A DNA stretch of 64,000 bases from Veillonella sp. T11011-6 (GTDB lineage Bacteria > Bacillota > Negativicutes > Veillonellales > Veillonellaceae): assembly GCF_002959755.1 (NCBI RefSeq), contig NZ_PPCW01000001.1, forward strand, positions 124,001-188,000. The letters are read 5' to 3'. Shown in pieces: positions 5,097 to 29,430 of this stretch. Position numbers and translations under genes: made by a program. The notes beneath the pieces were generated by a model. It ran no database searches. It saw nothing but the letters and a program-made list of their open reading frames with translations, and had not been told where the DNA came from. The first letter of the stretch is position 1. Each line of letters opens with the position of its first letter.

Positions 5097-5238
5097 GTAG
5101 TAGTAACATGCATTCATATATTGTAAAAATATTATATGAATGTAATAAATCGAATCTATATACCTTGTAAGAAAACACATAGATTATATAGACTATATGT
5201 GCGATAATATAGATATATTATTTCATGTTAGTAAACAG

Positions 5239-5266
5239 AGAGATGATGCCGATTGGTATCATCTCT
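5239..5266 (+). other. Hairpin just upstream of uvrA
   Basis: A 12-bp inverted repeat (AGAGATGATGCC, loop GATT, GGTATCATCTCT) with one G-U pair lies 16 bases before the uvrA start and is followed by only three or four T residues. It could be a weak terminator for the uvrB transcript or an attenuator/RBS-proximal structure for uvrA. A second AT-rich inverted repeat (CATTCATATA, 12-base loop, TATATGAATG) lies at 5111-5142. The rest of the 186-base gap shows no gene and no GAAC-N4-GTTC type LexA site. Confidence 0.6.
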
Positions 5267-5282
5267 TTAAATAGGGAACATA

Positions 5283-8135
5283 ATGAAAGAGCAATTGATT
5301 GTAAAAGGTGCGCGTCAGCATAACCTTAAAAATATAGATATATCCTTACCACGGGACCAGTTTATCGTGTTGACAGGCCTCAGTGGCTCTGGTAAATCGT
5401 CTTTAGCATTCGATACAATTTACGCAGAAGGGCAACGACGCTATGTAGAGTCTTTATCTGCTTATGCACGTCAATTCTTGGGACAAATGGATAAACCCGA
5501 TGTAGACTATATTGAAGGTTTATCTCCAGCAATTTCTATCGACCAAAAGACTACAAGCCGTAACCCTCGTTCTACAGTTGGTACTGTAACGGAGATTTAC
5601 GATTACTTGCGTCTATTATTTGCTCGCGTAGGTCATGCTCATTGTCCTGAATGTGGTAAGCCTATTACACAGCAAACAATACAACAAATGACAGACGATG
5701 TAATGAACTTCCCAGAAGGTACTAAGATTTTAGTATTAGCCCCTATGATTCAAGGGAAAAAAGGAGAGCATAAATCCGTCTTTGATCAACTTCGAAAAGA
5801 AGGTTTTGTTCGTGCCCGTGTAGATGGCGCTGTACGTACATTAGATGAAGATATTGTATTAGAAAAAAATAAAAAACACTCTATCGATATCGTAGTAGAC
5901 CGTCTCGTTGTAAAAGAAGGTATTGAATCTCGCTTAGCAGACTCTATGGAGACCGCATCAAAATGGGCAGAAGGCATTGTAGTTATCCAAGAGGTAGATG
6001 GACCTGAACACATGTATAGCCAACACTTTGCATGTCCAGATTGCCATATTTCCTTACCGAAAATTGAGCCACGTATGTTCTCCTTTAACAGTCCATTTGG
6101 TGCCTGCCCAGCTTGTTTGGGAATTGGCTCTACCATGGAAGTAGACGAAGAACGCGTTATTCCAGATGGATCTATTACCTTTGCCGATGGTTGTGTACAA
6201 GCGTTGAGCTCTAACCCTAATGCATGGTTTATGCGCCAAGTAGAAGGTCTATTAAAAGCTAATGGATACTCTTTAAATTCTACTTATGATGAATTGCCAA
6301 AAGCATTACAGAAAAAAGTAATGTACGGCACTACAGATAAGGTGGCTTTCACGTACGAAAATATGCGCGGCGAAGTGAAGGAATTCTTTACTGAGTACGA
6401 AGGTATTTTACCGATGGTAAAACGCCGTCATAGTGAAGCCTCTACAGATTCTATGCGTGAAGAGTTTGAAAAATTTATGTCCATTAAGCCTTGTACTACA
6501 TGCCATGGAGCTCGTCTTAAACCTGAAGTATTAGCTATAACCGTAGGGGATAAGAACATCAATGAAGTAACCCAATTGACCATTAAAGAAGCACTTGATT
6601 TCTTTGGTAAGTTACAGTTAACAGAGCGGGAACAAGTGATTGGGGCTCAAATTTTGAAGGAAATCAATGCTCGTCTTGGATTCCTCAATAATGTAGGCCT
6701 TGATTATCTTACTATGAACCGTAGTGCAGGTACTTTGTCTGGTGGTGAAGCTCAACGTATTCGTCTAGCTACGCAAATCGGCTCTGGTTTGGTAGGTGTA
6801 TTGTACATCTTAGACGAACCGTCCATAGGTCTACATCAACGAGATAATGATCGACTCATCGATACCTTAAAAGGCTTGCGTGATTTAGGAAATACCTTAC
6901 TCGTTGTAGAACACGACGAAGATACGATGCGTGCAGCGGACTATCTCGTGGACATTGGTCCAGGTGCTGGCGAACATGGTGGTCAAATCATTGCAGCTGG
7001 TACAGTAGACGAAGTGATGAAGGTAAAAGACTCTATTACTGGTCAATATTTGAGTGGCCGTAAATTTATCGCTCTTCCGGAACAACGCCGTAAAGCAGGT
7101 AAGAACTGCATTGAAATTCGCGGTGCTAAGGAAAACAATTTACAAAATGTAAATGTAAAATTCCCTATTGGCTTATTCAATGTTGTTACTGGTGTCAGCG
7201 GTTCTGGTAAGTCTACCTTGATTAATGAAATTCTCTACAAAGGTTTAGCTAATCAATTATATCGCTCTAACCACAAAGTAGGGGCTCATAAAGAAATCCG
7301 TGGTCTTGAACATATCGATAAAATCATCAATATTGACCAAAGTCCTATCGGTCGTACGCCTCGCTCTAATCCAGCTACCTATACTGGTGTATTCGATGCT
7401 ATACGCGAGCTCTATAGTCAAACACCAGAGGCTAAGATGCGAGGCTACAAACAAGGGCGCTTTAGCTTTAACGTAAAAGGTGGACGCTGTGAAGCTTGTC
7501 GTGGTGACGGTATCATCAAAATTGAAATGCACTTCTTGCCAGATGTGTACGTACCTTGTGAGGTTTGTAAGGGAGCCCGTTATAACCGAGAAACCTTAGA
7601 GGTTAAATACAAAGGCAAATCTATTGCAGATGTATTAGATATGACCGTAGACGATGCAGTAGAATTCTTTAGTGCCATCCCTAAAATTCATCGTAAGATG
7701 GTTACTTTACAAGAGGTAGGTTTAGGCTATATTCGTTTAGGTCAAGCCGCAACAACCTTATCTGGTGGTGAAGCACAACGGGTTAAATTAGCTACTGAAT
7801 TAGCTCGTCGCAGCACAGGTAAAACATTGTATATCCTAGATGAACCGACTACAGGTCTTCATGCCGAAGATATTCGCAAGTTATTACACGTATTGCAACA
7901 ACTCGTAGAGGGTGGCGATACCGTTGTGGTTATCGAGCATAATTTAGATGTCATTAAGATGGCAGATCACATTATAGACCTTGGCCCTGAAGGTGGTAAT
8001 CGTGGTGGTACCATCGTAGCTACAGGAACACCTGAGGAAATCGTGAAGGTGAAAGAAAGCTATACAGGCAAATTCTTAGGTCCTGTATTAGAACAGACTA
8101 AGAAATTTATGAAAGCAGCTCAAAAGAAAAAATAG
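5283..8135 (+). CDS. uvrA: Excinuclease ABC subunit A (UvrA)
   Basis: This is the damage-sensing ATPase of nucleotide excision repair, acting as a dimer that loads UvrB. Its 950 residues match the family. There are two ABC modules. The first has Walker [10 protein letters not shown] (32-40) and signature [12 protein letters not shown] (about 486). The second has GVSGSGKST (about 637) and [12 protein letters not shown] (about 826). Zinc-binding pairs are visible: CPEC near 120, CPDC and CPAC around 250-280, and CEAC/CEVC around 738-765. The latter belongs to the DNA-binding zinc module. The Shine-Dalgarno is only AGGGA, weaker than its neighbours. Confidence 0.99.
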
Positions 8136-15614: not shown

Positions 15615-15643
15615 TTTTCAGAATGTCTGATTTTTTATATAAT
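15615..15643 (+). promoter_or_regulatory. Candidate promoter of the defence operon
   Basis: TTTTCA (15615-15620) and TATAAT (15638-15643) are spaced by 17 bases and lie about 65 bases before the first start codon. It is the best -10 between the terminator and the helicase gene. Confidence 0.45.
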
Positions 15644-15708: not shown

Positions 15709-18700
15709 ATGGATGTAAAAGTTTTTGATAATATTAATGACATTGTTCGTGATGATATGATATCTACAATAAGTAATGGGAGTAAGATATCAATTGCTGC
15801 TGCTTGCTTTTCAATCTATGCTTATAAAGAATTGAAGGATCAGCTAGAGCAAATAGATGAGTGTAGATTTATTTTTACAGCACCAACATTTATTAAAGAA
15901 AAAACAGAGAAGCAAAAGAGAGAGTTTTATATTCCTAGATTAAATCGTGAGAATAGCTTATATGGTACAGAGTTTGAACTGAAGCTACGTAATGAAATGA
16001 ACCAGAAGGCTATAGCAAAAGAATGTGCAGAGTGGATTAAACAAAAAGCAACATTTAAGTCTAATATTACGGGAGAGAATATGACTGGATTTGTAAATGT
16101 AACGAATTCCAATTCTGCTACTACTTATATGCCTATTAATGGGTTTACCACAGTTGATATTGGTTGTGAACGTGGTAATAATACTTATAACATGGTTAAT
16201 CGATTTGAATCACCGTTTGCTGATACGTACATCAATTTATTTGAAAGCCTGTGGAATGATAAAAATAAACTTCAAGATGTTACGGATATTGTTATAAACA
16301 ATATGACTTCTGTTTATAATGAAAATTCACCAGAGTCTATTTATTTCTTGATTTTATATCATGTATTTAGTGAGTTTCTCAATGATATCTCCACTGATGA
16401 ATTACCAAATGAAGCTACAGGGTTTAAACAAAGTAAAATCTGGAATATGTTATATGACTTTCAGCGAGATGCAGTACTTGCCATTATAAACAAGTTAGAA
16501 CGATATAATGGATGTATTCTTGCTGATAGTGTTGGTTTAGGGAAAACTTTCACGGCACTAGCAGTTGTAAAATATTATGAGAATCGAAACAAAAGTGTTC
16601 TTGTTCTATGCCCTAAAAAGCTAGCAGAGAATTGGAATACCTATAAAGATAATTATGTAAATAATCCAATTGCCGCAGATCGACTTAATTATGATGTGTT
16701 ATTCCATACAGATTTATCTAGAACTGGTGGATTTTCTAATGGTCTTGATTTAAATCGCTTAAACTGGGGAAACTATGATTTAGTTGTTATAGACGAATCA
16801 CATAACTTCCGTAATGGTGTTGGTACGCATGCTAATACTGTGGAGAATCGTTACGTAAAGCTGATGGATAAGATTATTAAGGCTGGAGTAAAAACAAAAG
16901 TATTAATGCTTTCCGCGACACCGGTTAATAATAGATTTATTGATTTGAAAAACCAATTAGCTATAGCTTATGAAGGCGATACTTCGTTAATTGATAATAA
17001 ATTAGGTACAAACAAGTCAATTGATGAAATATTTAGACAAGCACAACGAGCGTTTAATACTTGGAGTGAGTTAGATGCTGCTGATCGAACAACAGATGCT
17101 TTGTTAAAAACATTAGATTTTGATTTCTTTGAATTATTGGATAGTGTCACTATTGCACGTTCAAGAAAGCATATTGAAAAATATTATGATACTACTGATA
17201 TTGGTAAGTTTCCTATAAGAAAGAAACCTATTTCGTTAAGACCAGTACTCACTAATTTAGAATCTGCTACTAACTATAATCAAATTTATGAAGCGTTAAG
17301 TAAGCTTTCCCTTTGTATCTATACACCATCTAACTATATATTTCCAAGTAAAATTCAAAAATATATTGATCTAACACATAATAAAGGAAATGAGTTAACC
17401 CAAACAGGTCGTGAACAAGGTATTCGCAAGTTAATGAGTGTTAATTTGTTGAAACGTTTAGAAAGCTCTGTTAATTCTTTTCAACTTACATTACAACGTA
17501 TTTATAGTTTAATTAATGATACTATAGATAAGATAAACCGATATGAGCAATATGGTGCAAGTAGTATTGATATGTATGAATCTGCTGATACAGAGTGGGA
17601 TATAGATGATAGTAATACCGAATATTTTACTGTTGGGAATAAGGTTCAAATTGATTTAGCTGATATGGATTATAAAACTTGGCGATCTGAACTTACTTCA
17701 GATATTGAGGTTTTAAATGAATTGATGCGTATGTTGAATGTAATAACACCTGAAAATGATGGTAAGTTACAATCTTTACTCAAGGTAATCTCTAACAAAA
17801 TAGAAAACCCAATTAATAGTAATAATAAAAAGGTTCTGATTTTTTCTGCCTTTTCAGATACTGCTGAGTATTTATATAAACATGTTAGTGCTTATATAAA
17901 AGAAAAATATGGACTTAATACTGCTGTTATAACAGGTTCTATTGATGGTAAAACTACTATTAAGAATTTTAAGGCTACTCTTAATAATGTATTGACATGT
18001 TTTTCTCCTATTTCTAAAGATAAAGCAGTTCTATTGCCAGATAGTAATGATGAAATTGATATATTAATTGCCACAGATTGTATATCTGAAGGTCAAAATC
18101 TACAAGACTGCGACTGTGTTATAAACTATGATATCCATTGGAATCCAGTTCGTATCATTCAACGATTTGGTCGTGTAGACCGCATTGGTAGTAAAAATGA
18201 AAGTATCCAACTTGTTAACTTTTGGCCTGATATGGATTTAGATGAATACATCAACCTTAAATGTCGTGTAGAAACAAGGATGAAAATTTCTATTATGTCT
18301 TCAACAGGAGATGATGATCTTATTAATGCCGAGGAGAAAGGCGATTTAGAGTATAGAAAGCAACAGCTTAAACGTTTACAAGAAGAAGTAGTAGATATAG
18401 AAGATATGTCTACAGGTATTTCGATTATGGATTTAGGTTTAAATGAATTCAGGCTCGATCTTTTAGAGTATATTAAAACTCATGGTGATATGGATACAAA
18501 ACCTAAAGGATTACATGCTGTTGTTCAATCATCTGAAGAACTTCCACAAGGTGTAATATTTGTATTGAAGAATGTTAATAACTCTGTAAATATTGATAAT
18601 CAAAACCGGATTCATCCATTTTATATGGTTTATATTGGTATGGATGGAGAGATAATCTGTGATTATCTAAATCCAAAGCAATTGCTTGATGATATTAGAT

Positions 18701-18945
18701 TATTATGTAGAGGCAAACAAGAACCAATAGTAGAATTGTGTCGAAAGTTTAATGAAGACACGAATGATGGGAAAGATATGCAGGAATTATCAAACCTTCT
18801 TCGTGAAACAATTCATTCTATTATCGATACGAAAGAAGAAAGTGAAGTTGATAGTCTATTTACAGCTGGTGGAACCTCTGCACTTATCTCAGTCGTATCT
18901 GGTTTAGATGATTTTGAGCTTATTTCTTTCTTGGTAGTTAAATAA
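15709..18945 (+). CDS. PLD-like/SNF2 helicase of the defence operon
   Basis: This 1078-residue superfamily 2 helicase opens the operon. Residues 1-200 look like a degenerate phospholipase D-like module without an HxK motif, containing TTVDIGCERGNNTYNMVNRF near 147. The ATPase follows: Walker A ADSVGLGKT (about 272-280), VVIDESHNFRN (359-369) and the SATPVNNR motif. After a long insert comes the helicase C lobe with IATDCISEGQNL (about 786) and QRFGRVDRIG (about 817). Such proteins translocate on or remodel DNA. It is not a normal type III R-M subunit, since Res carries its own motor. AAGGGG precedes the ATG by eight bases, and the DUF4391 gene follows after 11 bases. Its role in defence is inferred from context. 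Confidence 0.92.
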   Translation: MDVKVFDNINDIVRDDMISTISNGSKISIAAACFSIYAYKELKDQLEQIDECRFIFTAPTFIKEKTEKQKREFYIPRLNRENSLYGTEFELKLRNEMNQKAIAKECAEWIKQKATFKSNITGENMTGFVNVTNSNSATTYMPINGFTTVDIGCERGNNTYNMVNRFESPFADTYINLFESLWNDKNKLQDVTDIVINNMTSVYNENSPESIYFLILYHVFSEFLNDISTDELPNEATGFKQSKIWNMLYDFQRDAVLAIINKLERYNGCILADSVGLGKTFTALAVVKYYENRNKSVLVLCPKKLAENWNTYKDNYVNNPIAADRLNYDVLFHTDLSRTGGFSNGLDLNRLNWGNYDLVVIDESHNFRNGVGTHANTVENRYVKLMDKIIKAGVKTKVLMLSATPVNNRFIDLKNQLAIAYEGDTSLIDNKLGTNKSIDEIFRQAQRAFNTWSELDAADRTTDALLKTLDFDFFELLDSVTIARSRKHIEKYYDTTDIGKFPIRKKPISLRPVLTNLESATNYNQIYEALSKLSLCIYTPSNYIFPSKIQKYIDLTHNKGNELTQTGREQGIRKLMSVNLLKRLESSVNSFQLTLQRIYSLINDTIDKINRYEQYGASSIDMYESADTEWDIDDSNTEYFTVGNKVQIDLADMDYKTWRSELTSDIEVLNELMRMLNVITPENDGKLQSLLKVISNKIENPINSNNKKVLIFSAFSDTAEYLYKHVSAYIKEKYGLNTAVITGSIDGKTTIKNFKATLNNVLTCFSPISKDKAVLLPDSNDEIDILIATDCISEGQNLQDCDCVINYDIHWNPVRIIQRFGRVDRIGSKNESIQLVNFWPDMDLDEYINLKCRVETRMKISIMSSTGDDDLINAEEKGDLEYRKQQLKRLQEEVVDIEDMSTGISIMDLGLNEFRLDLLEYIKTHGDMDTKPKGLHAVVQSSEELPQGVIFVLKNVNNSVNIDNQNRIHPFYMVYIGMDGEIICDYLNPKQLLDDIRLLCRGKQEPIVELCRKFNEDTNDGKDMQELSNLLRETIHSIIDTKEESEVDSLFTAGGTSALISVVSGLDDFELISFLVVK

Positions 18946-18956
18946 GAAGGCGATAT

Positions 18957-19613
18957 ATGATGCTAGGTTTACCAAAAGCTACAGAATTTAATCGGCGCAT
19001 TCCTAAAGCTAAGTTCTATGAAAATATAAATATTACGACTTCTTTAAAACGATTGTTTGTAAATCAGGTAAAGAATATTTATTGGAGAAATAAAATTGCG
19101 CCTACAACTACTAATTTGATTGATGGAAAATATGTAACTGAGATAGAGATATTTGAAGTCAATCTTAATTATTCACAAGTGGATATAGAGATATTAAAAT
19201 TTATTGATAGTGTAATTCCGTATCATATTCTTTATATCTTAGAATACAATGGTAAGTATCAGGCATGGATTGGATATAAAGAACCTACGAATATAGAAAA
19301 GAAAATATCTAAAGTGGATAGATACTATCATACAAATTGGCTTGAAGAAACAGAGTTAATAGTAAAACTAGAAGGTCTAAACCTTGATGATGTATATGAA
19401 AACTTAGTACGTCAAATTGCTGGTGATAAGTTACAATCTGATAACTCTACCGAGACTTTAAAACAGTCTGTAGAGCGTGATAAAAAAATAGAAACTTTGC
19501 AAAAGCAAATTAGTATATTACAGAATAAAATACGAAAAGAAAAGCAGCTAAATAAACAAATAGAAATGAATACTGAGTTGAAGAAGTTAAAAATCGTATT
19601 GGAGAAAATATAA
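18957..19613 (+). CDS. DUF4391 family protein
   Basis: The 218-residue protein matches my memory of the DUF4391 family: it starts GLPKATEFNRRIPKAKFYE, then has an aromatic/basic KNIYWRNKIAPTT segment, TEIEIFEV, and a central IPYHILYILEY...YQAWIGYKE core (about 83-105), then YYHTNWL. The last about 60 residues form a Lys/Glu/Gln-rich coiled coil, a possible partner-binding tail. The family has no known biochemical activity that I can cite; I recall it mainly beside helicase and type III methylase genes. It overlaps mod1 by one base (TAATG), which indicates coupling and probably a shared complex. A bridging or regulatory subunit between helicase and Mod is a guess. Confidence 0.85.
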   Translation: MMLGLPKATEFNRRIPKAKFYENINITTSLKRLFVNQVKNIYWRNKIAPTTTNLIDGKYVTEIEIFEVNLNYSQVDIEILKFIDSVIPYHILYILEYNGKYQAWIGYKEPTNIEKKISKVDRYYHTNWLEETELIVKLEGLNLDDVYENLVRQIAGDKLQSDNSTETLKQSVERDKKIETLQKQISILQNKIRKEKQLNKQIEMNTELKKLKIVLEKI

Positions 19614-21490
19614 TGGAAAAAATGAGAATGGAATCAGTAGATATGACTGAAAAAAATATAGAGAAAATTGAATCATTATTTCCTAATTGTATTACAGAAA
19701 CTTTAGATGAAAATGGGACATTAAAAAAAGCTATAAATTTTGAAGCATTAAAACAGATGCTATCTAACGAAGTCATAGATGGTGATGAAGCTTATGAGTT
19801 TACATGGGTTGGTAAAAAAGCTGCTATTGTTGAAGCAAATAAGCCGATTCGAAAAACTTTACGTCCTTGTATAGAGAAAAGTGTAAATTGGGATAATACT
19901 GAAAATTTATATATAGAAGGTGATAACCTTGAAGTATTAAAACTTTTGCAAGAGAGTTATCTTGGGAAAGTTGATGTAATATATATTGATCCACCTTACA
20001 ATACAGGGAATGATTTCATCTATAATGATGACTTTAAATTATCAAGTGAAGAATATATAGAAGCGAATAATGAATTCGATGAAAACGGGAATAGACTATT
20101 TAAGAATACAGATAGTAATGGTAGATTTCATTCTGATTGGTGTTCAATGATTTATTCTAGATTATTATTATCAAGAAATTTATTAAGTGATACTGGTGTC
20201 ATTTTTATAAGTATTGATGATAATGAACAAGAAAATCTAAAAAAAATATGTGATGAAGTATTCGGTGAAGATAATTTCTTGGCACAAATAATTTGGGAAA
20301 GAGCTTATGCACCTATAAACTTAAAGAAACATTTCTCAAGGTCTCATGATTTTATACTTTGTTATGCTAAAAATGAGACTCTAGCTATTAATAATGGCAT
20401 TAAACGAAGTGAAGAGGCCGATAATCGATATTCCAATCCTGATAATGATTCAAGAGGAGATTGGAAAGCAGATAATTTTTCTGTTGGACCTGCAGTTGAA
20501 TCAAATATTTATCCTATAACAACACCTTCAGGACGTATTGTTGAGCCACCAGCTGGTAGAAGTTGGCTTGTTTCAGAGAAAGTTTTTTTAGAAAAATTAA
20601 GAGATAATAGAATTTGGTTTGGCACTGATGGTAACTCGGTCCCTAGTATGAAAAGATTTTTAAATGAACTAAAAAAAATTGGGATTACTCCGATGACCAT
20701 ATGGAAGTATAAAGAAGTAGGCCATTCACAAGATGCAAGTAAAGCTCTAAAGGAATTATTTGATGATAGAAAAATCTTTGACTATCCTAAGCCCGTAAAT
20801 CTTATCAAAAGATGTATTGAACTTTATTCTAAAAAGGACTCTATTATTCTAGATTTCTTTTCTGGAAGTGCAACTACTGCTCATTCTGTAATGCAATTGA
20901 ATGCAGAAGATGGTGGTCATAGAAAATATATAATGGTTCAATTAGCTGAGAAAACGGATGAGAATTCAGATTCATATAAGAATGGTTTTAAAAATATTTG
21001 TGAAATAGGACAAGAGCGAATTAGAAAAGCATCAAAAAAAATACTAGAAGATTATAAAGGGAATATTGATACTGAAAAGTTAGATACTGGTTTTCGTGTC
21101 TTTAAGTTAGATGATTCTAATATGACAGATGTATACTATTCAGCAGATGAATATTCTCAGAATCTATTGTCAAATTTAGAGTCAAATATTAAACAAGATC
21201 GCAATGATTTAGATTTGTTATTTTCTTGTTTACTTGAATGGGGGTTACCATTATCCTTACCATACAATTCAGAAGAAATAGAAGGTTGTGCTGTACATAA
21301 TTATAATAATGGTGATTTAGTGGCATGTTTTGATGAACATATACCAGATTCAGTTATCAAATATATTGCAAAACATCAACCTCTTCAGGCAGTCTTTAGA
21401 GATAGCAGTTTTGAAAGTAGTCCAGCTAAAATTAATGTTGGTGAGATTTTTAAATCATTAGCTCCAGATACAAGAGTAAAAGTTATTTAG
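19613..21490 (+). CDS. mod: Type III restriction-modification DNA methyltransferase (Mod), copy 1
   Basis: The 625-residue beta-class DNA methyltransferase should transfer methyl from SAM to adenine N6 and set the target specificity of the type III enzyme. The catalytic motif IV DPPYNTGND lies at residues 126-134 and the SAM motif I LDFFSGSATTAH at about 413-424, in the order expected for type III Mod. The region from about 230 to 400 should hold the target recognition domain. A C-terminal segment (about 500-625) is shared almost unchanged with copy 2. Three A8 tracts occur near 20238, 20671 and 21034, where slippage would shift the frame. A possible alternative start is the ATG at 19622. Confidence 0.95.
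   Translation: MEKMRMESVDMTEKNIEKIESLFPNCITETLDENGTLKKAINFEALKQMLSNEVIDGDEAYEFTWVGKKAAIVEANKPIRKTLRPCIEKSVNWDNTENLYIEGDNLEVLKLLQESYLGKVDVIYIDPPYNTGNDFIYNDDFKLSSEEYIEANNEFDENGNRLFKNTDSNGRFHSDWCSMIYSRLLLSRNLLSDTGVIFISIDDNEQENLKKICDEVFGEDNFLAQIIWERAYAPINLKKHFSRSHDFILCYAKNETLAINNGIKRSEEADNRYSNPDNDSRGDWKADNFSVGPAVESNIYPITTPSGRIVEPPAGRSWLVSEKVFLEKLRDNRIWFGTDGNSVPSMKRFLNELKKIGITPMTIWKYKEVGHSQDASKALKELFDDRKIFDYPKPVNLIKRCIELYSKKDSIILDFFSGSATTAHSVMQLNAEDGGHRKYIMVQLAEKTDENSDSYKNGFKNICEIGQERIRKASKKILEDYKGNIDTEKLDTGFRVFKLDDSNMTDVYYSADEYSQNLLSNLESNIKQDRNDLDLLFSCLLEWGLPLSLPYNSEEIEGCAVHNYNNGDLVACFDEHIPDSVIKYIAKHQPLQAVFRDSSFESSPAKINVGEIFKSLAPDTRVKVI
21408..21456 (+). repeat. 49-base segment identical to 23281-23329 (3' end of mod copy 1)
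   Basis: By direct comparison this stretch is base-for-base identical to the equivalent stretch in mod copy 2, inside a wider region of high identity covering about the last 370 bases of both genes. A second run of at least 37 identical bases lies further upstream around 21296-21332. These are possible substrates for recombination. Confidence 0.95.
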
Positions 21491-21500
21491 GGGGAAATTA

Positions 21501-23363
21501 ATGGATAAGATGAGAATGGAAACAGCAGATATTACTACTAAAAACATAGAACGGATAGGAAACTTATTCCCCAATTGTATAACTGAATCAATTGATAACG
21601 ATGGTACACTAAAAAAAGCTATAAATTTTGATGTTTTAAAGCAAATTCTTTCAAGCGATGTGATTGATGGTGATGAATCCTATGAGTTTACTTGGGTTGG
21701 TAAGAATAATGCTATTGTTGAGGCTAATAAACCAATTCGAAAGACTCTACGTCCTTGTAAGGAAAAAAGTGTAGATTGGGATAAAACTAAAAATATATAT
21801 ATTGAGGGAGATAATCTTGAAGTTCTAAAACTCTTACAAGAAAGTTATTTAGGATTAGTAAAGTTAATTTATATTGATCCACCATATAATACTGGTCATG
21901 ACTTTATATATCCTGATTCTTTCGTTATGGACTCCGATGAATATAATGATGGAATTCAATATTATGATTCATCTGGTAACATTAATTATCGAAGAGAAAA
22001 TAGTACAACAGCAGGTAGATACCATTCAGATTGGTGTTCAATGATATATTCTAGATTACTCTTAGCAAGAAATTTATTATCTGATGATGGAACTATTTTT
22101 ATTTCAATTGATGTAAATGAATCCCATAATTTACGTAAGATTTGTGATGAAGTTTTTGGTGCTGACTCTTTTGTAACAGATATTATTTGGAATTCTAGAA
22201 AGTCTGTTTCAAATGATGCTATAGTATCTCTTAACCATAATTATACATTGGTATATGCAAAGAATATGGAAGTATTTTATGCAAATAAATCAAAATTTAA
22301 GTTACCAGATACAGGTGATGGATTTCATAACTGGGATAATGACCCAAGAGGACCATGGAAAGCAGATCCATTTGATAGTCCAGGCATAAGACCTAATCTA
22401 ACCTACGGTATTATTAACCCTAATACAGGTGAAGAATTTTGGCCAGCAGAAGGACGTTGCTGGAGAACAGGGGAGGAAGAATATAAATCATTTTTAACGG
22501 ACAATAGGATAATATTCGGGAAAAATGGAAATAGTAAACCTCAACTAAAAAGATTTTTAAGTGAAGCTCAAGAGAAAGGAATAACTCCAAAATCATTGTG
22601 GGATGATTGTGGAACTGCAACTGAAGGAACAAAAGAAATTAAAAAGTTATTTGGCGCAAAAGTTTTTGATACACCGAAGCCTGTCAGTTTTATTAATAAA
22701 ATTATTAGATTGGCTACAAATAAAAATGATATAGTTTTGGACTTTTTTTCTGGATCTGCTACAACTGCTCATGCAGTATTACTGCATAATGCGTACACTA
22801 ATGCAGAATGTAAATATATAATGGTTCAAATGAATGAACCTATTTCTGAGAGTACCATTGCATATAATGAAGGTTTTAGAACTATTGCAGAATTAGGTAG
22901 AAAAAGAATCATATTGGCCGCTAATTATATAAAGCATGATACCAATGCTGATATTGATTATGGATTTAGAGTTTTAAAATTAGATGACTCTAATATGAAT
23001 GATATATATTACTCAGCAAATGAATATTCACAGAATTTACTTTCAAATTTAGAGTCAAATATTAAGTCTGATCGTAATGATCTTGATTTACTATTTGGCT
23101 GTTTGCTTGAATGGGGGTTACCATTATCATTACCATATAATTCAGAAGAGATAGAGGGCTGTACTATACATAATTATAATAATGGTGATTTAGTGGCATG
23201 TTTCAATGAAAATATACCAGATTCAGTCATTAAATATATTGCAAAACAACAGCCTCTTCGTGCGGTCTTTAGAGATACTGGTTTTGAAAGTAGTCCAGCT
23301 AAAATTAATGTTGGTGAGATTTTTAAATCGATAGCTCCAGATACAAGAGTAAAGGTTATTTAA
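21501..23363 (+). CDS. mod: Type III restriction-modification DNA methyltransferase (Mod), copy 2
   Basis: The 620-residue paralogue lies 10 bases after copy 1. DPPYNTGHD (126-134) and LDFFSGSATTAH (about 412-423) are both intact, so it should be active. The first about 125 residues and the last about 125 are close to copy 1. The middle (about 225-400) differs strongly apart from family landmarks such as DPRGPWKADPF and GKNGNSKPQLKRFL. That pattern suggests a different recognition sequence. GGGGGA precedes the ATG. Since only one Res follows, the two Mod proteins probably compete for or share it. Confidence 0.95.
   Translation: MDKMRMETADITTKNIERIGNLFPNCITESIDNDGTLKKAINFDVLKQILSSDVIDGDESYEFTWVGKNNAIVEANKPIRKTLRPCKEKSVDWDKTKNIYIEGDNLEVLKLLQESYLGLVKLIYIDPPYNTGHDFIYPDSFVMDSDEYNDGIQYYDSSGNINYRRENSTTAGRYHSDWCSMIYSRLLLARNLLSDDGTIFISIDVNESHNLRKICDEVFGADSFVTDIIWNSRKSVSNDAIVSLNHNYTLVYAKNMEVFYANKSKFKLPDTGDGFHNWDNDPRGPWKADPFDSPGIRPNLTYGIINPNTGEEFWPAEGRCWRTGEEEYKSFLTDNRIIFGKNGNSKPQLKRFLSEAQEKGITPKSLWDDCGTATEGTKEIKKLFGAKVFDTPKPVSFINKIIRLATNKNDIVLDFFSGSATTAHAVLLHNAYTNAECKYIMVQMNEPISESTIAYNEGFRTIAELGRKRIILAANYIKHDTNADIDYGFRVLKLDDSNMNDIYYSANEYSQNLLSNLESNIKSDRNDLDLLFGCLLEWGLPLSLPYNSEEIEGCTIHNYNNGDLVACFNENIPDSVIKYIAKQQPLRAVFRDTGFESSPAKINVGEIFKSIAPDTRVKVI
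23281..23329 (+). repeat. 49-base segment identical to 21408-21456 (3' end of mod copy 2)
   Basis: This is the second member of the identical pair. The two are 1873 bases apart in direct orientation, so recombination between them would delete one mod gene's worth of DNA and leave a chimeric methylase. Confidence 0.95.
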
Positions 23364-23375
23364 GGAGGTCTAGAC

Positions 23376-26300
23376 ATGAAACTACAATTTAAGCATCAAA
23401 AATTTCAAGCTGATGCTGCGAAGGCCGTGGTGGATGTATTTGCAGGACAGCCTTATTTAACACCATCATATATGATGGATAGAGGAACTGGTTATATTCA
23501 ACAATCCCTAACTGAGGATAATGATTTTACTGGCTTTAGTAACCAGATAATAGTGAAAGAATTAAGTGATGAGCTAATTCTTAGTCGAATAAAGAAAATA
23601 CAACGAGATAATCAAATTCTACCATCTGATAAATTAGAAGGTAGATATAATTTGACTATTGAAATGGAGACTGGTGTTGGTAAGACTTATACATATATTA
23701 AAACTATGTATGAGCTTAATAAACATTATGGTTGGAGTAAATTTATTATTGTTGTACCTAGCATTGCTATACGTGAAGGTGTTTATAAAACTTTCCAAGT
23801 TACACAAGACCATTTTGCGGAAGAATATGGTAAAAAGATTCGATTCTTTATTTATAACTCTGCTCAATTAACTGAAATTGATCGCTTTGCATCTGATAGC
23901 TCCATTAATGTAATGATTATTAATTCTCAAGCATTTAATGCAAAAGGTAAGGATGCTAGACGTATTTATATGAAATTAGATGAGTTTAGATCTCGTCGTC
24001 CTATAGATATTATTGCCAAGACAAATCCTATCTTAATCATTGATGAGCCTCAATCTGTAGAAGGAAAACAGACAAAAGAAAGTTTAAAACAATTTAATCC
24101 ATTAATGACTCTTCGTTACTCTGCAACTCATAAGAGTGACAGTATCTACAACATGGTTTATCGATTAGATGCATTAGAAGCTTACAATAAATATCTTGTA
24201 AAAAAAATTGCTGTTAAAGGTATTACTGAATCTGGAAGTACAGCTACTGAAAGTTATGTTTATCTCGAAGGTATTAATCTTTCAAAGTCAGCTCCTACAG
24301 CAACTATTCAGTTTGATTATAAAGGTGCTAAAGGCATTCGAAAGATAACAAGAGTTGTTTCGGAAGGCTATAACCTCTATGATAACTCAGGCCAAATGGA
24401 AGAGTATAAAGATGGTTTTGTTGTATCTAGAATTGATGGTCGTGATGACTCAGTTGAGTTTATTAACGGAGTAAAGGTCTATGCTGGTGATGTAATTGGC
24501 AAAGTAAATGAAGATCAACTTCGACGTATTCAAATAAGAGAAACAATTTTATCTCATATTGAAAGAGAACGTGACTTATTTTATAAAGGAATAAAAGTAT
24601 TATCTTTATTCTTTATAGATGAGGTAGCAAAGTATAAGCATTATGATGCTTCTGGATTGCCTATTAATGGTATCTATGCAGATATGTTTGAAGAGGAGTA
24701 TAAGGATATTATTGATAATCTTCAAATAAAATTTGGTGAAGATGAGTATATAAAGTATATTAATGCTATTTCTGAATCGTCTACACATGCAGGTTATTTC
24801 TCCATTGATAAAAAAGGAAAAATGGTTGACTCTAAGTTAAAAGATAAAAAAGAGAAAACATCAGATGATGTTGATGCTTTTGATTTAATTATGAAGAATA
24901 AAGAACTTCTTTTAGATAGAGACCCTAAGAAATCTCCTGTTAGATTCATCTTTTCTCATTCAGCATTACGTGAAGGCTGGGATAATCCAAATGTTTTTCA
25001 GATTTGTACATTAAAACAAAGTAGTAGTGATGTGCGCAAACGTCAAGAAGTAGGCCGTGGTCTTCGCCTTTGTGTAAACCAAGATGGGGAACGTATGGAT
25101 ACCAATGTACTTGGTAATGATGTACATAATGTAAATGTTCTTACTATAATAGCTAGTGAAAGCTACGATAGTTTTGCAAAGGGCTTACAAGCTGAAATTG
25201 CCGAGGCCGTTGCTGATAGACCTAAATCAATCACACCTGAATTATTCATTGGAAAAGTAATTAAAGATATACATAATAATGAACAGGTTATAGATGATCA
25301 AATAGGACGTGCTATTCATTATGATCTTATTGTAAATGGTTATATTGATAAAACAGGTGCTCTTACTGATAAATATTATGATGATAAGTCTAATGGTTTA
25401 ATACAGGTTGCTGATGAAGTATCTGACTCCAAGGATGCAGTTATAGGAATCATTGATTCTATCTATGATTCTAAATCGATACAATTTGAAAATGCACGCA
25501 GTAATAATGTTGAGCTTCAGTTAGACGAAGATAAAGTTTCTATGCCTGAATTTAAAGCACTATGGAATAAGATAAATTCCAAATCAGTATATGTCGTTGA
25601 TTTTGATACTGATGAGCTTGTTAGAAATGCAATTTCAGCTTTAGATAGCAAACTTCGAGTTTCAAAGATTTTCTATAAAGTTGAATCTGGTACTATGAAA
25701 CAGATTAAATCAAAAGAGGCGTTAGAAACATCAGGTTCTTTTGTAAAAGAAGCTGCTTCAACATATGGAAGTAAAAATGCTGTAAGTTCTAATGTTAAAT
25801 ATGATTTGGTCGGTAAACTAGTAGATGAGACCGGGCTTACGCGTAAAGCAATTATACAGATTCTTCAAGGTATTGAATCTGCTGTCTTTAATCAATTCAA
25901 AGATAATCCAGAAGAGTTCATTATTAAAGCTGCATCACTTATAAATGATGAAAAAGCAACAGCAATTATTGAGCACATCACATATGATGTACTAGATGAA
26001 AAATATGATACTAATGTATTTACTGATCCAACAATTAAAGGTCGCTTAGGGACTAATGCGATGAAAGCTAATAAACATTTATATGACCATATTGTTTATG
26101 ACTCAACAAATGAAAAAAACTTTGCATCTGAGTTGGATATAAACTCTGATGTGGCTGTATATGTTAAATTACCTGATGGATTTTATATATCAACACCTGT
26201 TGGTCGATATAACCCAGATTGGGCAATAGCTTTTTATGAAGGTAGTGTAAAACATATTTATTTTGTTGCTGAAACAAAGGGCTCTATGAATTCAATGCAA

Positions 26301-26426
26301 CTCCGATTGATTGAAGAATCCAAACTACATTGTGCACGTGAACACTTTAAAGCTATCAGTAAAGGGGACGTTGTTTATGATGTTGTTGATAGCTATAAGT
26401 CACTACTAGATATTGTGACAAAGTAA
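23376..26426 (+). CDS. res: Type III restriction enzyme Res subunit
   Basis: The 1016-residue motor-nuclease works with Mod to cut DNA carrying two unmethylated sites. The SF2 motor is complete: Walker A METGVGKT (97-104), Walker B-type IIDEPQSVEG (about 223), LRYSATHK, then FSHSALREGWDNPN and the arginine-finger motif QEVGRGLRL (about 560). The C-terminal nuclease has the PD-(D/E)xK residues in NPDWAIAF (D948) and VAETKG (E966, K968). No truncation or frameshift is seen. AAGGAGG precedes the ATG, and the gene lies 12 bases after mod copy 2, as expected for a mod-res operon. Confidence 0.96.
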   Translation: MKLQFKHQKFQADAAKAVVDVFAGQPYLTPSYMMDRGTGYIQQSLTEDNDFTGFSNQIIVKELSDELILSRIKKIQRDNQILPSDKLEGRYNLTIEMETGVGKTYTYIKTMYELNKHYGWSKFIIVVPSIAIREGVYKTFQVTQDHFAEEYGKKIRFFIYNSAQLTEIDRFASDSSINVMIINSQAFNAKGKDARRIYMKLDEFRSRRPIDIIAKTNPILIIDEPQSVEGKQTKESLKQFNPLMTLRYSATHKSDSIYNMVYRLDALEAYNKYLVKKIAVKGITESGSTATESYVYLEGINLSKSAPTATIQFDYKGAKGIRKITRVVSEGYNLYDNSGQMEEYKDGFVVSRIDGRDDSVEFINGVKVYAGDVIGKVNEDQLRRIQIRETILSHIERERDLFYKGIKVLSLFFIDEVAKYKHYDASGLPINGIYADMFEEEYKDIIDNLQIKFGEDEYIKYINAISESSTHAGYFSIDKKGKMVDSKLKDKKEKTSDDVDAFDLIMKNKELLLDRDPKKSPVRFIFSHSALREGWDNPNVFQICTLKQSSSDVRKRQEVGRGLRLCVNQDGERMDTNVLGNDVHNVNVLTIIASESYDSFAKGLQAEIAEAVADRPKSITPELFIGKVIKDIHNNEQVIDDQIGRAIHYDLIVNGYIDKTGALTDKYYDDKSNGLIQVADEVSDSKDAVIGIIDSIYDSKSIQFENARSNNVELQLDEDKVSMPEFKALWNKINSKSVYVVDFDTDELVRNAISALDSKLRVSKIFYKVESGTMKQIKSKEALETSGSFVKEAASTYGSKNAVSSNVKYDLVGKLVDETGLTRKAIIQILQGIESAVFNQFKDNPEEFIIKAASLINDEKATAIIEHITYDVLDEKYDTNVFTDPTIKGRLGTNAMKANKHLYDHIVYDSTNEKNFASELDINSDVAVYVKLPDGFYISTPVGRYNPDWAIAFYEGSVKHIYFVAETKGSMNSMQLRLIEESKLHCAREHFKAISKGDVVYDVVDSYKSLLDIVTK

Positions 26427-26470
26427 ATTTTTATACATTAATTTATGTGAGGGGATTGGGAGTATATAAA

Positions 26471-28249
26471 ATGGGAACTGAATTATTTGATAATATTCCT
26501 AGTAGGGTATCAGACTTATTATCAGATGTAAGAAATGGTCGAATTGGATTACCAGACTTACAAAGACCTTTTGTATGGAAAGATAATAAAGTTAGAGAGT
26601 TATTAGATTCTATGATGAAAGGATATCCTATTGGGTATATTATGCTATGGGCTTCCCCGGAAGACTATGAGAATACGGGTCACATTGGTAAAAATGATAA
26701 GTTATATAGGCAACCTGATGATCTAGTGATTGATGGTCAACAGCGCTTAACAGCTTTATTAGGTGCGTTATATGGGGTAAGCATTAAAGACAAAAATTAT
26801 AAAGAACGGAATATACGTATTTCTTATAATCCATTAACTCGAGAGTTTGCAGTGTGGACACAAGCTTATGAACGAAATCAAGAGTGGATTAGTTCGATAA
26901 GTAGTGTATTTAAGGATCATAAAGACTTTAATATTGCGAAATTTCGTAAATCATTTATTAAAAACTGCAATGAAAATCGAATAAAAAATGGTGTTGATAT
27001 ATTAACTGAAGATGAAGAGGACTTGATTGAAAGTAATATTAATGCTCTCTTGAATTTGGAAACGTATTCCTTACCAACATTAAAAATTAATTCTAAAGCA
27101 ACAGAAGAAGATGTTGCCGATATATTTGTTAGAGTTAACTCAGGTGGACAAAATCTTACGGAAAAAAATTTTATAGAAACTCTTTTAGCAGTTTATGATA
27201 ATGAGGTTCACGAACTTATTAACAAGTTCTGTGCCGAATCTAGAATTCCATCTGAAAAAACATCCTTTAATCAAATTATTCAAGTTAGTCCGGCACATCT
27301 AATTAGAGTCGCTGTAGGTGTTGGGTTTAAACGAGCACGTTTACGTTATGCTTATATGTTACTTAGAGGAAAGAATCTAAAAACAGGCGAAATAACACAA
27401 ACTATACGTGATGAAAATTTAAAAGTATTTAAGGATTCGCTTGATCTTGTATGTAATCTTAATAATTGGCATGCATTCATGAACTTATTTTCCACTGCAG
27501 GATATTTGAAAAGTAGCTTAATTGCATCTTCAAATGCTGTAGTGTTTAGCTATGTTTTATATTTAATAGGAAAATATTCCTATAAGGTACCATCTGTTAA
27601 ATTGAATAAAATTATCCGTAAATGGATTTTTATGTCTACAATTACTGGATTTTATACAGGATCAACAGAGAGTGCGGTAGAAAAACAATTTGCAGATTTA
27701 CGGAAAATCAGTAAGGCAGAGGATTTTATTAGCTATTTGGATACTATTATATCTAATAGATTTACAGACGATTATTTTACTGTTTCATTACCATCAGAAC
27801 TAAATAGCTCATCGGCGACATCTCCTGCTTGGTATGGATATGTAGCAGCACTTAATGTTTTAGGTACACCTATGTTATTTAGTACAGAACCTTTATCACA
27901 ATATTTTATTATGGGAACAAATGGTGATAAAAGCGCCATTGATAAGCATCATATTTTCCCTAAACATTATCTTCAATCTATTGGTTATGATGATGATCGT
28001 GATAGAAATCAAATAGCTAATTTTACATATTTGGACTATGTTACAAATATTGATATTTCTGATACTTCTCCATTAGAATATGTACAAAAATATAGACAAA
28101 AACTAGGTCAGGAAGCTTTTAATCTTACTTGTGAACAAAATGCACTTCCTTTAAATTTTGAAACGTTATCATATTCAGAGTTTCTAAAACAACGTAGATT
28201 ACTAATAGCTCAAATTATTAAAAAAGCTTATACCAAGTTAGATTCTTGA
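26471..28249 (+). CDS. DUF262-HNH (DUF1524-like) nuclease, GmrSD/SspE-like
   Basis: The 592-residue protein has an N-terminal DUF262 domain with LPDLQRPFVW (about 27-36) and the ParB-like nucleotide-binding motif IDGQQRLTAL (87-96). It ends in an HNH-type nuclease with DKHHIFPKHYL near 490 and the following Asn residues (IANFTYLDYVTNI). DUF262 plus DUF1524 is the architecture of type IV modification-dependent enzymes (GmrSD) and of SspE in phosphorothioate defence. The target here is unknown. I chose ATG 26471, with GGGAG eight bases upstream, over a GTG at 26447. The 44-base spacing from res and the lack of a terminator suggest co-transcription with the type III genes. Confidence 0.88.
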   Translation: MGTELFDNIPSRVSDLLSDVRNGRIGLPDLQRPFVWKDNKVRELLDSMMKGYPIGYIMLWASPEDYENTGHIGKNDKLYRQPDDLVIDGQQRLTALLGALYGVSIKDKNYKERNIRISYNPLTREFAVWTQAYERNQEWISSISSVFKDHKDFNIAKFRKSFIKNCNENRIKNGVDILTEDEEDLIESNINALLNLETYSLPTLKINSKATEEDVADIFVRVNSGGQNLTEKNFIETLLAVYDNEVHELINKFCAESRIPSEKTSFNQIIQVSPAHLIRVAVGVGFKRARLRYAYMLLRGKNLKTGEITQTIRDENLKVFKDSLDLVCNLNNWHAFMNLFSTAGYLKSSLIASSNAVVFSYVLYLIGKYSYKVPSVKLNKIIRKWIFMSTITGFYTGSTESAVEKQFADLRKISKAEDFISYLDTIISNRFTDDYFTVSLPSELNSSSATSPAWYGYVAALNVLGTPMLFSTEPLSQYFIMGTNGDKSAIDKHHIFPKHYLQSIGYDDDRDRNQIANFTYLDYVTNIDISDTSPLEYVQKYRQKLGQEAFNLTCEQNALPLNFETLSYSEFLKQRRLLIAQIIKKAYTKLDS

Positions 28250-28320: not shown

Positions 28321-29430
28321 ATGAGATCATATTTATTAAGTAGAAAAAATTTAACAAGGAAATTAAGTTTATTATGTGATGAGAATATTAAATCAAAGAA
28401 TACGATTACATCTATAGTAAGAGGAAACGCAATAGAGATATGTAGTTTTTATGATTTAATTATGGAAATAGCTGAATTATCATATAGGAATCCTGATGTA
28501 ATGTTATTTTATCGTGGTCAAAATAATAATTATACGAAGAATAATATTGCTACTTTGTATCCAACGATATATCGTGCTACTGATAAAAGTAATATAAATT
28601 TTGATTTTAAAGTATTAAATGAATCATCTGTAAAATTGATTGCTGCACTTAAAGCAGATGAAAGGATTGATTCAGAAGAACTTAAAGAGATAAGAAAAAT
28701 CAAACTATTACAGTACTCAATTTTGCAACATTATGAGGTATGTAAAACCCCTTTATTAGATTTAACACAATCAATAAAAGTAGCTTGCTCATTTGCAATA
28801 CTAAATAATGAAAAAAATATTGGATATATTTATGTACTTGGACTTCCATATATAAATGGTAGAATATCCGTTGATTCTGAGGAATATATTACTAATATAA
28901 GGCTGTTGAGTATAAGCTCAAGTGCTGCTAAAAGACCATTTTTTCAAGAGGGGTATTTAGTACAAACTGAATTTGCTTCAGATATTGAGAATAATATAAA
29001 AATGGATGAGTTAGACTTTAATAGAAGATTGTTGGCTATTTATAAGTTTAAAAATAATAAACAGTTCTGGGGCGATGAGAGTCCTATAAGCGAGACTGCA
29101 TTATATCCTGATGATGATATAATGAAAGAAATATGTAATAGAATTAAAGATTCTAAATACTATTTGAGTAATAAAACCACCAAAAATACAAATACAAAAT
29201 TATTAGGTGATTTTTTAACATTATGGTCAAATATAGAAAATAATTATAATAGTAAAAATACTAATAATCATTTACTCATAGATAAGTCTTATGTACATGA
29301 TGAATCAGATTTAAGAACTTTGCTAGCTTTTCGAAATAAGGTTATTAACAAACCAGATCTTGTTAAAGATGATGAGTTAATAAAAAGTATTAATATGTTA
29401 AGGTCACTCTTAGATAATAAGAGAATATAA
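28321..29430 (+). CDS. FRG domain-containing protein
   Basis: The 369-residue protein carries the FRG signature: MLFYRGQNNNY (about 61-71), then LQYSILQHYEVCKTPLLDLT (about 130-149) and KVACSFA. FRG domains are named for this Phe-Arg-Gly pattern and are common in phage-defence and toxin-like loci, but their activity is not established to my knowledge. The C-terminal about 100 residues are Asn/Lys-rich and helical, with no recognisable domain. The gene lies 71 bases after the DUF262 gene with its own AAAGG site, and is followed after about 90 bases by the first copy of the repeated terminator hairpin. It is one of the most A+T-rich genes in the window. Confidence 0.8.
   Translation: MRSYLLSRKNLTRKLSLLCDENIKSKNTITSIVRGNAIEICSFYDLIMEIAELSYRNPDVMLFYRGQNNNYTKNNIATLYPTIYRATDKSNINFDFKVLNESSVKLIAALKADERIDSEELKEIRKIKLLQYSILQHYEVCKTPLLDLTQSIKVACSFAILNNEKNIGYIYVLGLPYINGRISVDSEEYITNIRLLSISSSAAKRPFFQEGYLVQTEFASDIENNIKMDELDFNRRLLAIYKFKNNKQFWGDESPISETALYPDDDIMKEICNRIKDSKYYLSNKTTKNTNTKLLGDFLTLWSNIENNYNSKNTNNHLLIDKSYVHDESDLRTLLAFRNKVINKPDLVKDDELIKSINMLRSLLDNKRI

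Follow-up and report, generated by a model that had tools for sequence, protein, structure and literature searches.

Type III restriction enzymes are thought to run on two proteins and one ATPase: Mod recognises and marks the sites, and Res cuts unmarked DNA. The two proteins act as a Mod2Res1 complex, which requires a pair of inversely oriented sites for cutting. How these enzymes find and pair their sites has long been argued in the field. This paper is concerned with a Type III operon of Veillonella sp. T11011-6, present on a stretch of 64,000 nucleotides (contig NZ_PPCW01000001.1, positions 124,001 to 188,000 of the forward strand), which is called the window in the following. Here, two mod genes and one res gene are preceded by the genes for a helicase of the SNF2 family with a PLD-like N-terminal region, designated HEL, and for a protein of the DUF4391 family.

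The canonical Type III system consists of mod and res only, as stated in the accessible part of Murray et al. (2021, PMC8259958). EcoP15I and EcoP1I, which represent this type, have Mod and Res of the same families as those of the window, whereas HEL, DUF4391 and the second Mod are additional in the window. The operon is accordingly read as a variant, the restriction to two genes being a typical and not a catalytic feature of the class.

For the Eco86II-type Type III systems, an extra SF2 ATPase gene located 5' of mod is described in the accessible part of the same article, where methylation did not need the ATPase and BspHIV is given as a second system with an extra gene (PMC8259958). Like the window operon, this group carries a gene for a SNF2-family ATPase immediately upstream of Mod and Res. 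However, the Eco86II locus of strain NCTC86 (L081) is organized as SNF2-Mod-Res, with no DUF4391 gene between the ATPase gene and mod, and its ATPase (WP_000580534.1) aligns with HEL in motor segments only (35% identity over 141 amino acids and 28% over 209) and has its best matches to DISARM DrmD models (663.5 bits). An identity of HEL with the Eco86II helicase was therefore rejected. The Eco86II SNF2 protein is 44% identical to those encoded beside Type III Mod-Res in E. coli STEC309, where a GmrSD gene is also present, and in locus L088; together with the alignment to HEL, this shows that the SNF2 proteins of Type III operons belong to two or more families. A first-pass annotation of the window had named no described system with exactly this set of genes. 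This has to be narrowed, since the accessible text of PMC8259958 already contains an extra helicase gene 5' of mod, although it belongs to another SNF2 family and lacks DUF4391.

In E. coli CFT073, a HEL-DUF4391-Mod-Res operon has been identified (L082), with a HEL that is 54% identical to the window protein over the whole length. EcoCFT_II, a Type III system recognised in the same strain by way of REBASE, has been cloned and was one of two Type III systems tried on a phage collection, according to the accessible part of PMC8594841; the cloned system restricts phages, as reported in the accessible parts of PMC8594841, PMC11990801 and PMC13250531. We infer that EcoCFT_II is the L082 operon; its effect on phages says nothing yet about HEL or DUF4391.

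A further group of relatives is formed by PLD-SNF2 operons with a Type IIG-like methyltransferase. Five of them are close (L172, L174, L177, L179 and L183), with HEL proteins 39-41% identical to that of the window (L179: 38.6% over 1092 amino acids); all five are from viral-labelled contigs, and the L177 methyltransferase is only partly on its contig. Three distant cases are located on plasmids of Planktothrix (L205), Microcystis (L206) and Parabacteroides (L207). No Res was detected by hidden Markov model (HMM) search in the five close loci; two of these, L174 and L177, run up to the end of their contig. The analysed stretches of the three plasmid loci contain no gene annotated as a Type III Res. 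In these IIG-linked operons a DUF4391-like region is present in the N-terminus of the Eco57I-like methyltransferase, whereas DUF4391 is a separate gene in the window, and the PLD domain has intact HxK and GSSN motifs, unlike the window HEL.

A SNF2-family helicase beside a DNA methyltransferase is also found, as in the window, in systems of the DISARM and BREX type (helicases DrmD and BrxH). Assignment of the operon to DISARM was rejected, with HEL scoring 155.5 bits against the NCBIfam DISARM DrmD cut-off of 610, and no other DISARM or BREX core protein was a leading match among seven window proteins scanned with PADLOC. A search of the open-licence PMC literature found no work on a Type III system with HEL and DUF4391, and DUF4391 is named there in one paper, in an enrichment table with no function given.

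The operon and its conservation as a unit

The features of the operon, with the methods on which each is based, are as follows.

15709-18945, + strand: HEL, 1078-amino-acid SNF2-family helicase with a degenerate PLD-like N-terminal domain (open reading frame (ORF), Pfam, PADLOC, AlphaFold2 (AF2) model)
15709-16398, + strand: PLD-like N-terminal region of HEL, about residues 1-230, HxK pair absent (alignment with relatives)
16450-18222, + strand: SNF2 motor of HEL, residues 248-838, with Walker A GLGKT, DESH and motif VI QRFGRVDR (Pfam, conservation, fold)
18957-19613, + strand: DUF4391 protein, 218 amino acids, proposed adaptor between the motor and Mod/Res (PF14335, AF2)
19458-19607, + strand: helical hairpin at the C-terminus of DUF4391, coiled-coil-like, residues 168-217 (secondary structure in the AF2 model)
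19613-21490, + strand: Mod1, 625 amino acids, Type III beta-class DNA methyltransferase with DPPY and FSGSATT (Pfam, PADLOC, motifs)
21501-23363, + strand: Mod2, 620 amino acids, second Type III methyltransferase (Pfam, comparison with Mod1)
23376-26426, + strand: Res, 1016 amino acids, Type III restriction subunit with SF2 ATPase and endonuclease (Pfam, PADLOC, EcoP15I match)
26070-26390, + strand: PD-(D/E)XK endonuclease domain of Res, residues 899-1005 (PF19778, 118.5 bits)

It is near certain that HEL, DUF4391, Mod and Res form a conserved unit. Their association was surveyed in 398 Bacillota genomes, which were searched for DUF4391, HEL and the Res endonuclease domain; before counting, the second fragments of broken genes in genome G159 (one of 37 DUF4391 rows and one of 36 HEL rows) and 19 of the 77 Res rows, weak ones that scored below 57 bits, were dropped. 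HEL was found within 300 bp of DUF4391 at 31 of 36 DUF4391 places. The five others comprise a contig start (G042), a HEL fragment at a contig start (G230), an adjoining broken HEL (G159) and two deletions of HEL that left short remnants (G248, G298). Seen from HEL, DUF4391 lies within 300 bp at 31 of 35 places; at the remaining ones HEL is followed by a DUF3800 gene and then the contig end (G312), stands at a contig edge (G320), is truncated and has none of the partners (G377), or is broken (G159). Res is located within 15 kb of DUF4391 at 28 of the 36 places, and each of the remaining eight lies at a contig edge. The first-pass annotation had assigned HEL and DUF4391 to the same system as mod and res and had proposed a search for conserved adjacency; this survey upheld the assignment, the pair not being usually found apart from mod and res.

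Gene order was compared in 70 complete loci drawn from genomes, plasmids, phage records and viral-labelled contigs, some of them near-duplicates; as these were picked for the joint presence of HEL (at least 1000 amino acids), Mod (at least 520) and Res (at least 900), they test order and not association. The order HEL-DUF4391-Mod-Res on one strand was present in all 70. DUF4391 was detected by HMM in 67 of them, in 64 of which the gap between HEL and DUF4391 is within 60 bp; exceptions to this adjacency, with gaps of 408-1055 bp, lie outside the complete set (L136, L175, L182). In 57 thinned loci the distances were correlated between HEL and Res (r=0.90), HEL and DUF4391 (0.83) and HEL and Mod (0.78), with a Mantel p of at most 0.001 each. 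The value for HEL and Res shows co-inheritance, not contact, and shared ancestry of neighbours alone could yield it. Records with a HEL-bearing enzyme were obtained from Bacillota, Proteobacteria, Bacteroidota and Synergistota, and a DNA match to a HEL gene was present in 88 of 5,426 E. coli genomes.

In the window, the gaps between HEL, DUF4391, Mod1, Mod2 and Res are 11, -1, 10 and 12 bp in this order and all five ORFs are intact, which bears out the spacing of -1 to 12 bases noticed in the first-pass annotation. A promoter scan gave 72 sites compared to 92.7 in shuffled sequences, so that a candidate at 15615-15643 carries little weight. The closest named relative of the locus was identified in Veillonella tobetsuensis (L031; HEL 95% and DUF4391 87% identical), which has a single Mod of 680 amino acids where the window has two.

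For the Mod proteins, Pfam N6_N4_Mtase scores of 131.3 (Mod1) and 118.8 bits (Mod2) were obtained, and Mod1 matched PADLOC MTase_III at 801.9 bits and the EcoP15I Mod chain (4zcf_A) with E=7.7e-61. Both window Mods contain DPPY and an FxGxG-type motif, as is characteristic of Type III Mod, and DPPY is unchanged in the Mods of 70 of 70 relatives. Res, with SF2 ATPase motifs and a C-terminal PD-(D/E)XK nuclease as in Type III Res subunits, matched ResIII at 57.9 and RE_endonuc at 118.5 bits in Pfam, REase_III at 960.9 bits in PADLOC and the EcoP15I Res chain (4zcf_C) with E=1.6e-63; its nuclease residues D948, E966 and K968 are identical in 69 of 70 relatives, the last showing a gap. Judged by sequence, Mod1, Mod2 and Res are equipped with the motifs of a functional Type III enzyme. 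All motor, methyltransferase and nuclease motifs that were tested are present in the window and kept in nearly all of the 70 relatives. A PADLOC comparison, also proposed in the first-pass annotation, thus placed the Mods in MTase_III, Res in REase_III and HEL in the model C3a139 'HKD+Snf2', while DUF4391 matched none of the models of PADLOC-DB 2.0.0.

Mod1 and Mod2 are 61% identical overall, with closer ends (the C-termini are near-identical) and diverged middles; two Mods sharing one Res would provide two recognition sequences. Two Mods were also observed in L143 and L175.

Mod-Res also exists without the pair: in L088, L089, L094, L098, L107 and L108, Mod-Res stands by itself or beside a different SNF2 gene, with room upstream. 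A stable HEL-DUF4391 pair without Mod-Res was not clearly seen at any of the 36 DUF4391 places in the 398 genomes. The pair therefore looks like an add-on to Mod-Res. In a Res tree of 40 HEL-linked and nine other rows, the HEL-linked label needs four changes.

The motor of HEL and the DUF4391 protein

HEL was matched by Pfam SNF2-rel_dom (47.8 bits) and Helicase_C (65 bits), and by the single-protein model C3a139 at 406 bits over residues 177-1077; PADLOC gives this model no curated cut-off, and HEL, its CFT073 counterpart and the IIG-linked relatives all match it at 406-421 bits. The Walker A, DExH and motif VI residues, as present in SNF2-family translocases, are identical in 70 of 70 relatives. 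In a fold search with the AF2 model (mean predicted local distance difference test (pLDDT) score 77.6), residues of about 232-909 resembled SNF2 remodellers, with a best Z of 23.0 and a root-mean-square deviation of 4.0 over 416 aligned residues; this search was dominated by the motor and barely probed the N-terminal domain.

A Pfam scan of HEL residues 1-248 gave no domain match, and hence no other nuclease family. The region aligns with the PLD domains of relatives which read HGK...GSSNFT, and the window HEL lacks the combination of HxK and GSxN that marks PLD (HKD) nucleases. HxK was found in only one of 104 Type III-linked HELs (L043; one of 66 after thinning) and in none of ten unassigned ones, whereas both HxK and GSSN are present in all eight relatives beside a Type IIG-like methyltransferase. 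In a HEL tree, the Type III-linked proteins form one clade with a Shimodaira-Hasegawa-like approximate likelihood ratio test (SH-aLRT) value of 96, and the IIG-linked ones fall outside; the tree was built quickly, takes its root from the SNF2 protein of Eco86II, and has SH-aLRT values without bootstrap and long basal branches.

By sequence, HEL combines a complete SNF2 motor with a PLD-like domain devoid of the HxK catalytic pair; its 'PLD' label describes ancestry and not activity. The PLD assignment of the first-pass annotation did not hold in this respect, the active-site pair having been lost in the Type III-linked branch (103 of 104 without HxK), and HEL was rejected as an active PLD nuclease on the same count. 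This suggests that the motor lost its own cutting site on joining the Type III system.

The DUF4391 protein is a member of PF14335 (191.4 bits, Pfam cut-off 29.9). Its AF2 model, with a mean pLDDT of 93.8, combines a long hairpin of helices with a small alpha/beta part. A Foldseek search with this model gave no match at E<=0.001, and in a second fold search mainly the helical hairpin was matched (best Z 8.2 over 45 residues), residues 176-218 being the only part covered by at least a fifth of the matches; a profile search of solved structures gave chance coiled coils only. Since P6 and K17 are the only near-invariant residues across 48 sequences, DUF4391 is unlikely to be an enzyme, and this candidate role was considered and left unsupported.

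A likeness to DUF4391 was found in the methyltransferases of the IIG-linked sister operons. Pfam DUF4391 was matched in three of four that were scanned whole, at 23, 22.8 and 19.5 bits, all below the cut-off. With hhalign, DUF4391 scored 42.7 and 41.6 against the N-termini of sister methyltransferases, as compared to highest control scores of 18.8 for 60 column shuffles, 14.4 for reversed sequences, 19.8 for the methyltransferase core and 21.5 for 14 unrelated tiles of Res, Mod and HEL. By these profiles, DUF4391 resembles the N-terminal region of the IIG-linked methyltransferases, and the fusion of a DUF4391-like part to the sister enzymes suggests that DUF4391 links motor and methyltransferase in the Type III operon.

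Cargo genes and interrupted loci

The first-pass annotation had described a five-gene operon. The five genes stand, but the end at Res does not, since the same-strand run goes on with two further genes:

26447-28249, + strand: GmrSD-type (DUF262) gene (PF03235, 112 bits), 20 bp 3' of Res
28321-29430, same strand: FRG-domain gene, 71 bp 3' of the GmrSD-type gene

The GmrSD-type gene is likely to be defence cargo rather than part of the core. In the 70 complete loci, same-strand ORFs of at least 120 amino acids occupied the slot between DUF4391 and Mod in 20 loci, that between Mod and Res in 14 and that between HEL and DUF4391 in one, and this single ORF (L032) is itself DUF4391-like. Among the contents of the variable slots are known defence genes, namely OLD and DUF2130 in E. 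coli H6, SIR2-like and HerA-like genes in L047/L067, reverse transcriptase and RhuM in L163 and GmrSD in L127.

Several observations were made beside these. GmrSD genes are located in or beside the related operons L127, L169, L190 and L084 (STEC309). In L195 (11196-14922), which is not one of the 70 complete loci, genes for an OLD-type nuclease and a UvrD helicase, a Gabija-like pair, are inserted between HEL and DUF4391. L186 has a gene with a Piwi domain (Argonaute-like; 4442-6496) after HEL-DUF4391, and the end of Res upstream of HEL, in a rearranged order. DUF3800 is a separate gene after HEL in L114 (3449-4264); in L174 (3336-8018), the IIG-like methyltransferase carries it as a C-terminal fusion. 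In two E. coli loci (L080, 9087-9992; L082, 4507-5412), a gene for a WYL-domain regulator is located directly 5' of HEL and may control the operon.

In three loci, the mod gene following an intact HEL-DUF4391 is homologous only to about codon 126 (L129, 12131-12508; L131, 7094-7477; L157, 5369-5746). The homology breaks off at the codons of the catalytic DPPY motif, and large serine recombinases (PF00239, PF07508, PF13408) are encoded downstream. The remaining half of mod was searched for in the analysed records of these loci and was not found. Mobile elements may use the DPPY codons as a site of integration.

Possible roles of HEL and DUF4391 in a Type III system

The reading that we prefer, although we regard it as evenly poised between right and wrong, is that a nuclease-dead motor and an adaptor have joined a Type III enzyme that is otherwise ordinary and in which Res makes the cut. 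HEL would be an ATP-driven DNA translocase that does not cut, and DUF4391 a non-enzymatic adaptor tying HEL to the recognition complex, either Mod or Mod2-Res. By its movement, HEL could help target sites to be found, cleared of bound proteins or brought together, and the likely gain would be DNA movement over a longer range, or more reliable movement, than with Res alone. The ancestor may have been an active PLD-SNF2 nuclease-helicase working with a methyltransferase that contained a DUF4391-like N-terminal part. After one recruitment beside Mod-Res, the PLD site would have become redundant, because Res already cuts, and would have decayed.

Several results weigh against this proposal. In the accessible part of PMC8259958, the preparation of Eco86II, whose SNF2 protein is of another family, cut DNA in vitro with no detectable helicase peptides. 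Among strong Res places, 30 of 58 have neither HEL nor DUF4391 within 15 kb, many of these being at contig edges. In L071, L072 and L086, short HEL remnants precede a whole Res, with Mod whole in two of them and split in one; in the Res tree, L086 is placed beside L043, which retains HEL. L043 is also the Type III-linked locus with HxK. The PLD contrast is nearly a single evolutionary event, so that its counts are not independent, and of the three distant IIG-linked HELs among the eight, the one that was compared is only 26% identical over 772 residues. For the adaptor, the partial distance correlations (DUF4391-Mod given Res 0.13, HEL-Mod given Res 0.11, DUF4391-Res given HEL 0.51) favour Res over Mod as partner and do not favour docking on Mod. 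The variable recognition part of Mod may blur the signal, or Res may be the partner. The coiled-coil tail of DUF4391 had been taken in the first-pass annotation as suited to bridging; the DUF4391-like region fused to the sister methyltransferase speaks for such a bridge, but Mod does not stand out as its partner in the distance statistics.

Three other roles of the pair were weighed. HEL and DUF4391 might form a second, self-standing defence, for example a sensor of DNA or replication, that is co-inherited without touching Mod-Res. The variable slots of related loci do hold GmrSD, SIR2-like, HerA-like, OLD nuclease and reverse transcriptase genes, and Mod-Res exists without the pair. We consider this unlikely, however, as no clear stable pair without Mod or Res was seen among the 36 DUF4391 places, the pair comes first in 70 of 70 complete loci and HEL is strongly co-inherited with Res, unlike cargo, and the decay of the PLD site leaves no evident effector. 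Since SNF2 proteins are able to remodel or remove protein-DNA complexes, and the motor of HEL resembles chromatin remodellers in the fold search, the pair could instead be a control or safety device which restrains Res or removes the Type III complex from the cell's own DNA, for example at replication or damage. The persistence of Mod-Res after deletion of HEL in three loci would fit a dispensable regulator; the same three loci also speak against it, for if the pair restrained Res, a Res left behind without HEL ought to harm the cell, and the fusion of a DUF4391-like part to the sister methyltransferase suggests a structural rather than a regulatory role, so that we hold a control device to be quite improbable. 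That HEL still cuts or nicks DNA as a second nuclease, through a non-canonical PLD-like site, is very hard to believe: its N-terminal region is homologous to the active-looking HKD domain of relatives, and the Type III-linked L043 retains both HxK and GSSN, but all other Type III-linked HELs are without HxK and Pfam identified no other nuclease family in the N-terminal 248 residues.

The reading as a motor and an adaptor can be extended to a more specific proposal, which we regard as doubtful but worth stating, namely that these operons represent a Type III subtype of their own, with four components, where a PLD-SNF2 nuclease-helicase retired from cutting serves as a dedicated translocating subunit, coupled through DUF4391. 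If this is true, DNA would be moved by two engines, the ATPase switch of Res and the SNF2 motor, cutting from single or wrongly oriented sites would become possible, unlike in canonical Type III enzymes, and the SNF2 families of HEL and of Eco86II/STEC309 would have been recruited separately for the same problem.

For the Type III family, the operon means that, in several phyla, the enzyme is passed on together with a second DNA motor, itself complete. The decay of the PLD site and the link of DUF4391 to methyltransferases turn the 'extra helicase' into a specific, testable claim of a motor and an adaptor with no nuclease, and the related operons in E. coli make this claim testable in that organism.

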